From positions 1-45,359 of the forward strand of contig JACDED010000021.1 of NCBI GenBank assembly GCA_013816615.1: a stretch of 45,359 nucleotides of DNA, in the 5' to 3' direction. The DNA is from Bacteroidota bacterium. Lineage in GTDB: Bacteria; Bacteroidota; Bacteroidia; B-17B0; Aurantibacillaceae. A program made the translations under genes and the position numbers. Under the pieces are notes generated by a model. The model worked only from the letters and a program-made list of their open reading frames with translations. It ran no database searches and was not told the DNA's origin. Shown piece by piece: positions 20,508-24,210 of the stretch (the stretch's first letter is position 1; each line of letters starts with the position of its first letter).

Positions 20508-21548
20508 CTAAAGGGCGTTCAGGGCCTGTATTGCAGCCTCAAAATCAGGTTGTATCTTTAAGCACATAGTATAATCGGCCTTTGCACTTTGTTTGTCTTT
20601 TAGCTGTGAGTAGGTATAGCCGCGTGCAAAATACGCCTGAGCAGAGTTAGGATTAAGAGCAATGGCATTGGTAAAATTCTCTAATGCAGATTTATTATCT
20701 TTTTTAATTTCTAAATAAATGGCACCAAGATTATAATAACAATTTTCGCAATTTTTATTTTTTTGAAGAATGGATTTGTACTCTGTTATTGCTTCATCGG
20801 TCTTTCCAAGATCCTGTAATAATTTTGCACGAGCGTATATTGTGTTTTCGTTAGTTGGATTGATCTTTAAAGCATTATTGTAATACTCTAGTCCTAACGG
20901 ATTTTTTTGCGCAGCAAACATAACACCAAGATCAATAAAAGCGTTTTCGAATTTACCATCCTGTTCAATAGCAGTTTCTAAACTTGAAACCGCTCTTGTT
21001 GTATCGCCGCTCTCACGATAGATACTTCCTTTTAAATAATAGGCTTTTGCTGACCTGTCATTTATTTTAAGCGCTTTATTTACATAATCAATTCCTTGTT
21101 GGTATTGTTTTACGATAAAATATAATTCAGATAGTTTTAAAAGTGCATCGGCATTATCAGGGAATTTTTTTTCTACGATCTCTAACGCTTCTTTTGCTAA
21201 ACGTGTATTATTTTGTGTGTAATACGCATCTATTAAAGCCATATAATGTTCTGCTTTGGTACTGTCTATTTTAATGGCGCGTTTAGCATCATTAATAGCT
21301 TCGGGTAATTTATTCAATGAAATATAAATGCCCGATCGTTTTGCATAGAGACCCGCATTGCCCGGATCTTTTAATAATTCAGCATTTACAGCTTTTAGTT
21401 CGGGTGAGTTTAATTTAATGCTTAAGCTATCGGAAGTTTTATTTTCTGCTTCAGTTTGTTCGAGTGAATTATTTTTACATGAATTAAATGCAATTAAAAT
21501 AATTGCAGAAAATAAAATAAAATATTTTTTATGAAAATTAAAGGTCAT
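20508..21548 (-). CDS. TPR-repeat lipoprotein
   Basis: 347 residues from the ATG at 21546-21548 (a further ATG at 21560 adds MQTP). Type II signal peptide FHKKYFILFSAIILIAFNSCKNNS with lipidated Cys, then about eight tetratricopeptide repeats (for example AEHYMALIDAYYTQNNTRLA, AKAYYLKGSIYRESGDTTRA, CENCYYNLGAIYLEIKKDNK). It is anchored in the envelope and serves as a protein-interaction scaffold; partner unknown. The start codon overlaps the 3' end of the CCG-domain gene, so the two are translationally coupled and it is the last gene of the mlaD-Fe-S operon. Confidence 0.88.
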   Translation of the reverse strand: MTFNFHKKYFILFSAIILIAFNSCKNNSLEQTEAENKTSDSLSIKLNSPELKAVNAELLKDPGNAGLYAKRSGIYISLNKLPEAINDAKRAIKIDSTKAEHYMALIDAYYTQNNTRLAKEALEIVEKKFPDNADALLKLSELYFIVKQYQQGIDYVNKALKINDRSAKAYYLKGSIYRESGDTTRAVSSLETAIEQDGKFENAFIDLGVMFAAQKNPLGLEYYNNALKINPTNENTIYARAKLLQDLGKTDEAITEYKSILQKNKNCENCYYNLGAIYLEIKKDNKSALENFTNAIALNPNSAQAYFARGYTYSQLKDKQSAKADYTMCLKIQPDFEAAIQALNAL

Positions 21549-22326
21549 TGGCGTTTGCAATTAGTTCTGCAATATCTAATACTTTGGTTTTATCTTCTTT
21601 ATTATAATGTTTTACGCCATCTGTCATCATCGTATTGCAAAACGGACAACCAACTGCTATCACATCCGGATTTAATGCTAAAGCTTCTTCTGCACGTTCT
21701 ACATTCACTTCTTTGGTTCCTTTTTCGGCCTCTTTAAACATTTGGGCTCCACCGGCTCCACAACATAATCCTTTTGCTTTGCTGCGTTTCATTTCCGCTA
21801 ACTCCACATCCAGTTTTTGAATAATATCTCGCGGGGCTTCGTAAACATCGTTCCCTCTTCCTAAATAGCAGGGGTCGTGAAAGACAATTTTCTTGCCTTT
21901 GAATTCGCCGCCTTGTACTTTTAATTTGCCCTGGTTAATTAATTCCTGAACTAATTGGGTATGGTGAACTACTTCATAGTTTCCACCCAAAGCAGGATAT
22001 TCATTTTTAATAGTATTAAAGCAATGCGGGCAACCCGTAACAATTTTTTTTATGCTATAACCATTCATAACGGTTATGTTTTGCATGGCCTGCATTTGAA
22101 ATAAGAATTCATTACCGGCACGTTTTGCAGGATCGCCTGTGCAACCTTCTTCAGAGCCAAGTATTGCGAACTTAATATTTACATGGTTTAAAATACGGAC
22201 AATAGCTTTGGTTATTTTTTTTGCACGATCATCAAAGCTACCGCTGCAACCAACCCAAAATAAAATTTCGGGAGTTTCGCCGTTAGCCACCATCTCGGCC
22301 ATTGTTGGTACCTTTATTATGTTCAT
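21538..22326 (-). CDS. CCG-domain (Fe-S)-binding protein, heterodisulfide reductase/GlpC-like
   Basis: 262 residues with two cysteine-rich CCG domains (PF02754): first CPHCFNTIKNEYPALGG with the earlier GCSGSFDDR, second CYLGRGNDVYEAP, then LCCGAGGAQMF and CPFCNTMMTDG. These domains bind a non-cubane or 4Fe-4S cluster and pass electrons in complexes related to HdrB, LutA or GlpC. The partner is very likely the membrane 4Fe-4S protein encoded at 22885-24210 on the same strand; together they resemble a two-subunit quinone-linked oxidoreductase of unknown substrate. The pair is separated here by the GxxExxY element. Confidence 0.92.
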   Translation of the reverse strand: MNIIKVPTMAEMVANGETPEILFWVGCSGSFDDRAKKITKAIVRILNHVNIKFAILGSEEGCTGDPAKRAGNEFLFQMQAMQNITVMNGYSIKKIVTGCPHCFNTIKNEYPALGGNYEVVHHTQLVQELINQGKLKVQGGEFKGKKIVFHDPCYLGRGNDVYEAPRDIIQKLDVELAEMKRSKAKGLCCGAGGAQMFKEAEKGTKEVNVERAEEALALNPDVIAVGCPFCNTMMTDGVKHYNKEDKTKVLDIAELIANANDL

Positions 22327-22338
22327 ATTCTTTTTTTT

Positions 22339-22375
22339 ACCACTAAGGCACTTAGATCACTAAGTAGCACTAAGC
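22339..22375. repeat. Left CAC-iteron array
   Basis: Four near-identical heptamers: CACTAAG (22341), CACTTAG (22349), CACTAAG (22358), CACTAAG (22368). Downstream end of the nuclease gene. Confidence 0.8.
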
Positions 22376-22385
22376 TTTTATTTAA

Positions 22386-22838
22386 TTATTCTTTTGGCAG
22401 TTTAGAAAACTCTTCTGTTACCATTGGCACTAATTGTTGAACAATATTTTCACTATGAAAATTAATTAATAATCCTTTGGGAATATTAGCCAACTTAAGA
22501 TACGATAATAATTGGGCATTATAAAGAGGTATCATGACGTCAACCGCTTTTAACTCAACAATAATTAAATTGTTTACCAAAATATCAAGTTTCAGGATTC
22601 CTCCCAAATCTTTTCCTTTATAATTAACGGGAATATGTATCTGAGATCTAACATCAAGATTGTTATTTTTTAACTCTTCAATTAAACAAGAATGATAAAC
22701 CGATTCTAACAAACCCGGACCAACTTGTTTATGCACTTCAATTGCACATCCAACTATTTTGCATGAAATATCATTGATGTATTTTTGAGTAATCAATGTT
22801 TTTGTTTCATCTATATATTTGGCTATGCTGCTTTGCAT
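22386..22838 (-). CDS. GxxExxY family protein, PD-(D/E)XK nuclease fold
   Basis: 150 residues. The name-giving motif is Gly42-Leu-Leu-Glu45-Ser-Val-Tyr48 (QVGPGLLESVYHSCL). The nuclease core is intact: Asp85 (ILKLDILV), Glu95 and Lys97 (IIVELKAVD), and Gln109 with Tyr113 (AQLLSYLK). It is therefore likely a functional metal-dependent DNA- or RNA-cleaving enzyme of the family TIGR04256/PF13366, whose biological role is unknown. The N-terminal 25 residues extend beyond the core. Start ATG at 22836-22838, five bases after the right iteron array, so no separate promoter fits unless the array itself is one. It is otherwise transcribed from the Fe-S operon. Confidence 0.92.
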   Translation of the reverse strand: MQSSIAKYIDETKTLITQKYINDISCKIVGCAIEVHKQVGPGLLESVYHSCLIEELKNNNLDVRSQIHIPVNYKGKDLGGILKLDILVNNLIIVELKAVDVMIPLYNAQLLSYLKLANIPKGLLINFHSENIVQQLVPMVTEEFSKLPKE

Positions 22839-22843
22839 TTTGT

Positions 22844-22878
22844 CTTAGTGTGTCTTGTGTTCTTAGTGTCTTAGTGGT
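22844..22878. repeat. Right CAC-iteron array (inverted)
   Basis: CTTAGTG (22844), CTTGTGT-type degenerate unit (22854), CTTAGTG (22862), CTTAGTG (22870): inverted relative to the left array. Confidence 0.8.
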
Positions 22879-22884
22879 TCTTCA

Positions 22885-24210
22885 TCAGGCTTCATTTATC
22901 CAGTTAGCACGGTCAGCCTGGCTAAATTGCCAAGGTGCACCGTTGTTTTCAATATTACTAAACATGTTATTTAATTCCGGGCGCGTATTACTCTCCTCCA
23001 TTACTAAATACCTTCTTATCTCTACAATTATCGCTAATGGATCAATATTTACGGGACATTCCTGGACGCATGCATTACATGTATTACAAGCCCAGATCTC
23101 TTCATGTTTAATGTAATCACCTATTAATGATTTGCCATCATCTACAAATGTGCCTTTATTTTTATCAATGTTCTTTCCAACTTCTTCTAATCTGTCACGC
23201 GTATCCATCATAATTTTACGAGGAGACAATGCTTTGCCGGTAATGTTTTGTGGGCAAGCAGAGGTACATCTTCCACACTCAGTGCAGCTATATGCATCCA
23301 TTAAATTTTTCCAGGTAAGATCTTGTACATCTTTAACACCAAATCTTACAGGATTGTCAGGATCTGTTTTTGCAACATATGCAGGATCAAAATTTGGAGC
23401 TACAACATCCGTCACAGCGTCAAGCGTTGTAAATTGGCCTTTTGGTTTTAAGTTTGAGAAATATGTATTCGGAAATCCTAAAACAATGTGTAAATGTTTT
23501 GAGAACGGTAAATAATTTAAAAAACCAAACACAATTAAAATATGCCCCCACCAGCCAATGCGTTCAACAACGTGTAAACCGTTATCAGATATGCCGCCAA
23601 ATAATAAAGGACCAACGTGTTTACTAATTGATAAACCTAAAGAGCCATTATTTAAATTTGTTGCGTGTGATAAACCACGTGAGTATAAAACTTCATCTGC
23701 GCCATTCATCATAAAAATAAAACAGATCAACGTTAGCTCGCCAAATAAAATAAAGTTAGCGTCTAATTTTGGCCAACCGTTTAATTCATTCATTACAAGG
23801 CGCGGTACTTTTAATAAATTTCTTCTGGCTAAAAAAGCAATGGTACCAATGAACGCCAACACAGAAAGGATCTCGATAAAGCTTACAGCAAAAGTGTATA
23901 AGCCTCCTAAAGACTCTCTGAAAATACGGTGACTGCCACTAATGCCATCTACAATAATTTCAATTAATTCAATTTGTGTAATGATGAATGCAGTATATAA
24001 AAATAAATGCAGTATTGCAGGAATAGGACGCGCGAACATTTTTTGCTGGCCTAAGGCAACAAGCACCATTGTTTTTAAACGTTCGCCTTTATTATCTGTG
24101 AGAGGAATGTCTTTACCCAAAAGGATATTTCTACGGATCTTTTTTACATTGATAGAAAAAAAAGCAGAAGCGCCAATTAATAGTAAAGCGAAGATGATCG
24201 AGCTTATCAT
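22885..24210 (-). CDS. Membrane-bound 4Fe-4S dicluster oxidoreductase subunit
   Basis: 441 residues. The N-terminal half has about five hydrophobic helices (first at 4-18, then around 65, 110, 155, 220) resembling a NarI/HdrE-like cytochrome or quinone module. The C-terminal half carries two ferredoxin clusters: CTECGRCTSACP at about 305 and CNTCNACVQECP at about 374. The end NNGAPWQFSQADRANWINE is typical of these Bacteroidota proteins, to my knowledge. It likely forms a membrane complex with the CCG protein (21538-22326), passing electrons to or from quinone. It starts 9 bp after the mlaD stop. Its 3' neighbour has been displaced by the GxxExxY element. Confidence 0.92.
   Translation of the reverse strand: MISSIIFALLLIGASAFFSINVKKIRRNILLGKDIPLTDNKGERLKTMVLVALGQQKMFARPIPAILHLFLYTAFIITQIELIEIIVDGISGSHRIFRESLGGLYTFAVSFIEILSVLAFIGTIAFLARRNLLKVPRLVMNELNGWPKLDANFILFGELTLICFIFMMNGADEVLYSRGLSHATNLNNGSLGLSISKHVGPLLFGGISDNGLHVVERIGWWGHILIVFGFLNYLPFSKHLHIVLGFPNTYFSNLKPKGQFTTLDAVTDVVAPNFDPAYVAKTDPDNPVRFGVKDVQDLTWKNLMDAYSCTECGRCTSACPQNITGKALSPRKIMMDTRDRLEEVGKNIDKNKGTFVDDGKSLIGDYIKHEEIWACNTCNACVQECPVNIDPLAIIVEIRRYLVMEESNTRPELNNMFSNIENNGAPWQFSQADRANWINEA

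Follow-up and report, generated by a model that had tools for sequence, protein, structure and literature searches.

Units that consist of one GxxExxY nuclease gene between two inverted arrays of CAC-type repeats were found to be present in some congeners and absent from others, to be dispersed, and to have arms that co-vary with the gene. On balance, the example described here, a 540-bp unit at positions 22339-22878, appears to be a one-gene, array-bounded element, with the GxxExxY protein as the dedicated enzyme of its own arm family. The broader proposal, which may well hold but is advanced more tentatively, is that such units make up a separate class of minimal mobile elements that spans phyla, in which a lone PD-(D/E)XK nuclease is coupled to folded iterated-unit arms that serve as a co-evolving recognition code and that also spread as gene-less copies.

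The window, that is, the whole 45,359-nucleotide stretch analysed, comprises positions 1-45,359 of JACDED010000021.1 (contig C13) in the 4.68-Mb draft genome GCA_013816615.1 of Bacteroidota bacterium (GTDB B-17B0; Aurantibacillaceae). The unit, arm, gene and arm, lies there between two host genes.

21538..22326, minus strand: CCG (cysteine-rich) domain partner, host gene; in empty-site genomes the 4Fe-4S gene is 12-75 bp away
22339..22374, plus strand: low-coordinate arm, 3' of the nuclease gene; four CAC-type units with spacers of 1, 2 and 3 nt; ACCACTAAGGCACTTAGATCACTAAGTAGCACTAAG
22386..22838, minus strand: GxxExxY / PDDEXK_3 nuclease gene; 150 aa; E45, D85, E95 and K97 intact
22844..22878, minus strand: high-coordinate arm, 5' of the nuclease gene and in inverted orientation to the low-coordinate arm; ACCACTAAGACACTAAGAACACAAGACACACTAAG
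22885..24210, minus strand: membrane 4Fe-4S protein, host gene; its stop codon precedes the element

The arm units are 7-mers, CACTAAG and its variants. The low-coordinate arm reads ACCACTAAG G CACTTAG AT CACTAAG TAG CACTAAG; the high-coordinate arm, read on the minus strand, is ACCACTAAG A CACTAAG AA CACAAG ACA CACTAAG. The original prediction, made from the window alone, had described facing arrays of CACTAAG-like units on both sides of the gene, a perfect inverted repeat of the outermost 9 bp (ACCACTAAG/CTTAGTGGT), gene-to-arm distances of 5 and 11 bp, and a position between the membrane 4Fe-4S and CCG-domain genes, both on the same strand, and in each of these respects it was accurate. Its 9-bp unit spacing was wrong; a regular 9-bp periodicity was rejected, as the spacers are 1, 2 and 3 nt here and 3-4-3, 2-4-2, 2-2 or others elsewhere.

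The window protein matched the GxxExxY profile TIGR04256 at 132 bits (cut-off 35) and the PDDEXK_3 profile PF13366 at 129 bits (cut-off 22), and it carries the GxxExxY motif and PD-(D/E)XK catalytic residues (G42, E45, Y48, D85, E95 and K97). Among 59 homologues E45, D85, E95 and K97 were invariant and Q109 was nearly so; the catalytic residues predicted to be intact (Asp85, Glu95, Lys97 and Gln109) are all in the window protein. An AF2 model (pLDDT 92) had SSO0001 (4ic1) as its best structural match (Z 8.9, rmsd 4.6 over 102 residues). Hjc and restriction enzymes matched at Z 6 to 7 (for Hjc 1gef, Z 6.4, rmsd 3.2 over 86 residues), and the best E-value obtained with Foldseek was 4.8e-3. These matches of the model point to a shared PD-(D/E)XK nuclease core and to nothing beyond it. 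Cas4/Hjc-like PD-(D/E)XK nucleases share this predicted core fold, but a sequence search of the PDB up to an E-value of 1 matched neither these nor any other solved structure.

GxxExxY is a common yet uncharacterised nuclease family, which was present in 50/60 relatives searched. The genes are chromosomal and rare on plasmids (8/72,556), and no GxxExxY match was obtained in the phage records and viral contigs searched; carriage by phages or plasmids was rejected on these grounds. PADLOC gave no confident match to a known anti-phage defence system, only weak ones (E 0.006-0.01), which makes membership of such a system less likely, and PHROGs returned none for GxxExxY.

Seven GxxExxY genes were identified in the source genome, with the unit types CACTAAG, CACATAG, CACAGATTT, GAACGCTGATGACGCTGAT, TACGAAT, ACAGATTT-like and CACTAATTACACGAATT. 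When all arms were scored against each other in a 7x7 matrix, every 5' arm matched best the inverted 3' arm of its own gene (7/7). A wide survey covered 80 loci, which were the best matches to one profile rather than a random sample of the family, from about ten phyla (Bacteroidota, Ignavibacteria, Chloroflexota, Planctomycetota, Acidobacteria and Verrucomicrobia among them) and included an archaeal Methanophagales contig. Arrays, defined as CRCNNAG runs of at least two units in the expected orientation, were found upstream of 62% and downstream of 63% of these loci, compared with 2-3% of shifted control positions. Convergent array pairs were present at 32/76 GxxExxY genes in about ten phyla compared with 2/1068 shifted control positions; the original prediction had called for such a search, and the outcome it feared, other GxxExxY genes without arrays, did not occur. 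For the source genome, genus and class, CRCNNAG-type arrays were found in 16/37 compared with 0/105, and in more if any unit was allowed. The window arrays are thus beyond chance, given the frequency of convergent pairs and the 21 hits of the CACTAAG arm pattern in the 4.68 Mb of the genome, against none for the reversed pattern.

Spacer-length vectors were identical in 77% of cases within elements and 12% between elements. Over 84 loci, arm similarity was predicted by protein identity (Mantel r 0.61; maximum under the null, 0.08); part of this signal reflects co-inheritance at a shared site. The repeat unit is specific to the GxxExxY subfamily, and the two arms are built from it in opposite orientations with matching spacer lengths. 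At some loci (L084, L128, L180) a full palindrome, not a single arm, was observed on each side of the GxxExxY gene.

The gap between the 4Fe-4S and CCG genes was compared in 30 congeneric genomes, among them the source genome. It was empty (12-75 bp) in 12 genomes and contained GxxExxY with CACTAAG arms in six. The remaining genomes carried four-helix-bundle ORFs with other inverted arrays (five genomes; L032, L038, L050, L051, L056), a HAD-like ORF (three; L034, L039, L049, assigned by eye), a RelE/ParE-like toxin-antitoxin pair (two; L045, L047, assigned by eye), a gene-less CACAGAG/CACAAAG array pair (one) or another ORF (one). The gap is an insertion hot spot. The proposed comparison of this operon in relatives yielded empty sites, and not the vertical inheritance, with the gene at this place in all relatives, that would have spoken against an insertion. 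Close relatives with a 95% identical CCG protein were without the element. The window insertion is nevertheless old rather than fresh, since six genomes share the insert, which is common to several congeners with dS of at least 0.44. It was also observed that four-helix-bundle (TIGR02436, IVP-type) genes share this architecture, though their units (GGTGTTAGGTATTAGGACTTAG or GGCAGTTGGCAGT, for instance) are unrelated; 62% of 39 such loci (L090-L094, L290-L318 and the gap loci) scored above the 95th percentile of mismatched flanks.

Protein pairs of more than 80% identity shared both flanks in 19/20 cases, and those of 60-80% identity shared neither flank in 250/344, which indicates that the units persist and now and then relocate. 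That they have moved also follows from clade-mates that are often at unrelated sites. The units are therefore long-lived in place and occasionally found at new sites, and movement is rare. In aligned intergenic regions of two congeners, elements were present in one and absent from the other, and one was kept in both; of four CACATAG sites, three were occupied in the second species by an element of another unit family, as read from the alignment. Orthologous intergenic sites of G019 (L105-L111) and G007 (L095-L104) were occupied by different palindrome families, as if these were interchangeable.

Gene-less copies were dispersed in the same genomes. Several CACTAAG sites were convergent pairs without a gene, roughly 80-130 bp in length and often at the 3' ends of genes, and many gene-less copies were located between convergent genes. 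The CACATAG arm was found at 46 places in the source genome (reversed control, none). Fifteen short CACATAG elements of 120-170 bp share their ends with a 466-bp gene-bearing unit (L004) and have a central hairpin in which the stem sequences vary and complementarity is kept (mean stem 9.1 bp compared with 5.1 in shuffles). AAATTT is present on both sides of these short elements and could reflect duplication of the target or a preference for it, or could belong to the element itself. Single CACATAG arms were also seen in tandem, repeated roughly every 214 and 104 bp (G030:C1, approximately 2513696-2514552 and 3095386-3095906).

Among 37 genomes of the genus, more than two CACATAG arms were found in 17/18 genomes with a CACATAG-clade gene and in 5/19 without one (Fisher 3e-5, a test that ignores host phylogeny and a count to which the gene-bearing element itself adds up to two arms). 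Five genomes in which no CACATAG-clade gene was detected still carry arms. No link between gene and gene-less palindromes was found for CACTAAG with the strict pattern, the palindromes being present in 2/6 site-carriers and in five other genomes; dependence of the CACTAAG gene-less palindromes on the gene was therefore not borne out.

These observations could also be read in terms of a resident nuclease that benefits the host in repair, defence or genome maintenance. The arms would then be its operators or the sites it recognises, and the dispersed copies would form a regulon or be structures exapted for gene 3' ends, for instance as bidirectional terminators. The gene is under strong purifying selection (omega 0.04-0.23) and has remained at one site for a long time, and this reading would account for both. 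Copies kept at one site in different species have an omega of about 0.06-0.2, which is unusual for a purely selfish resident; constraint this strong exceeds what a selfish resident would need. A chromosomal gene that is not phage-borne and is rare on plasmids, short CACATAG elements whose stems and flanking AAATTT resemble a terminator stem with its T-run, and unit families that replace each other at orthologous intergenic sites are likewise consistent with a resident role. In contrast, the arms at short distance on both sides of the gene, the 3' side too, the patchy presence among close relatives, the seven paralogues with different units in one genome and the clade-mates at unrelated sites all argue against this reading. 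We consider a resident nuclease unlikely, although a serious alternative. The earlier description of the unit as a minimal one-gene mobile or parasitic element stood in part: empty sites, arrays elsewhere, purifying selection and copies at unrelated sites agree with it, but the parasitic label sits ill with the low omega at a fixed site.

Comparison of the two arms revealed a signature of fold-back. In 16 CACTAAG elements the arms were identical in only 11/96 cells of the six spacer columns, compared with 35.8 ± 4.8 expected from shuffled arms; none of 20000 shuffles was as low. The mismatched spacers were noted among the palindromes L015, L016, L018, L019, L021 and L192-L204. No mismatch effect was seen in the variable columns inside the units of these 16 elements. 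Watson-Crick opposition was depleted at the spacer columns (A-T, 10 compared with 30; C-G, 1 compared with 6) and G-T opposition was not. These mismatches fit a folded DNA strand that needs 1x1, 2x2 and 3x3 internal loops; selection against perfect palindromes, with the units fixed by binding, fits them as well. A universal rule of arm mismatch was rejected, since gene-less CACAGAG palindromes in G381 (L205, L208) have perfectly identical arms, spacers included, and mixed-family gene-bearing elements lean towards identical spacers (70/147 compared with 56.7).

The absence of G-T depletion bears on a second alternative, in which base-pairing of the arms within the operon mRNA would lead to removal of the insert by processing, in the manner of 23S rRNA intervening sequences, with spread through RNA or incidental. 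Against it, G-T opposition was not depleted at the mismatched spacer columns although G-U pairs form in RNA; many gene-less copies lie between convergent genes, and the modelled fold of the protein is that of a DNA nuclease. Orientation is more compatible with this alternative, the gene being co-directional with both neighbours at 43/64 and 78/101 loci and opposed to both at 7 and 4. Four-helix-bundle (IVP-type) genes, which are known from rRNA intervening sequences, moreover share the architecture and even the Fe-S/CCG site. Taken together, an RNA-level unit appears improbable.

For the one-gene element that we favour, the following mechanism is proposed. The nuclease would recognise its own arms, probably while these are folded back as a hairpin or cruciform, and would then nick or cut at the arms. 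Host replication or repair may copy the unit, with or without its gene, into AT-rich DNA, where new copies would often land beside the 3' ends of genes; the gene-less copies would be the non-autonomous, MITE/REPIN-like form. The gene is probably expressed by operon read-through, given its usual sense orientation inside the operon and a median array-to-start-codon distance of 23 bp at the surveyed loci. To our knowledge, PD-(D/E)XK nucleases do not join DNA ends, and a partner activity would therefore be required.

This lack of joining activity in a PD-(D/E)XK nuclease acting alone, together with the gene-less copies in genomes that lack the cognate gene, would be accommodated if the arms were mobilised in trans by another enzyme, such as a RAYT/Y1 transposase, or by repair, with GxxExxY as a passenger. 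A passenger would not be expected to have arm units that co-vary with its protein, nor a CACATAG gene that is linked to arm number, and we regard mobilisation in trans as doubtful. RAYT was rejected as the mover, since the Y1_Tnp loci of the source genome were checked and had no such arrays. Chance or a low-complexity artefact, for which short units and AT-rich flanks might be blamed, was not reproduced by shifted, mismatched, shuffled or reversed controls and has a negligible probability.

Of the known systems, REP/REPIN sequences with their RAYT are similar in having a one-gene autonomous partner with flanking palindromic repeats, fold-back, long persistence, and dispersed gene-less palindromes that are intergenic, at gene ends and in the same genome. 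They differ in the enzyme, which is a PD-(D/E)XK (PDDEXK_3) protein here and an HUH Y1 transposase in RAYTs. The foot of a REP palindrome carries a GTAG or CGTC tag (PMC3733652); the ends here are ACCACTAAG or AACCACATAG, with A/T-rich flanks and 7-mer arrays and without such a tag. MITEs and their parent IS also combine short non-coding elements with terminal inverted repeats common to a gene-bearing element, as seen for the 120-170 bp CACATAG elements, but here there is no DDE transposase, the terminal repeats are degenerate unit arrays and there is no clear target duplication. More generally, PDDEXK_3 is the sole gene between the arms, in contrast to insertion sequences, with no DDE, HUH or recombinase-type transposase. 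Intervening sequences of 23S rRNA (S23/four-helix ORF) likewise have one small ORF between inverted repeats inside a transcription unit; the protein family here is another, and the units lie between protein genes in mRNA operons. Free-standing homing endonucleases are likewise solitary nuclease genes that occur as optional inserts in conserved operons, but the element described here has inverted arrays of its own, and its gene-less copies lie at unrelated sites.

We hold the mobile-element reading with moderate confidence. The closest functional parallels are REP-RAYT and MITE-IS pairs, but the enzyme class and the end structure depart from what defines either, and it is on account of the enzyme and the co-evolving arms that the system is rated new. 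Searches of the open-access literature with the family name, the Pfam name and the arm sequences found no description of GxxExxY repeats, although an earlier one is possible.

The layout is far more general than was first seen in the window. The cognate-array rule is testable, since it predicts for each protein a binding site in the arrays to either side of the gene that encodes it. If confirmed, the proposal would add a nuclease type so far not known as the sole driver of a mobile element, and would provide a natural collection of co-evolved protein and DNA-unit pairs. It would also explain the dispersed CAC-type palindromes in several phyla; if it is true, those found in many bacterial genomes would be the traces of GxxExxY elements.
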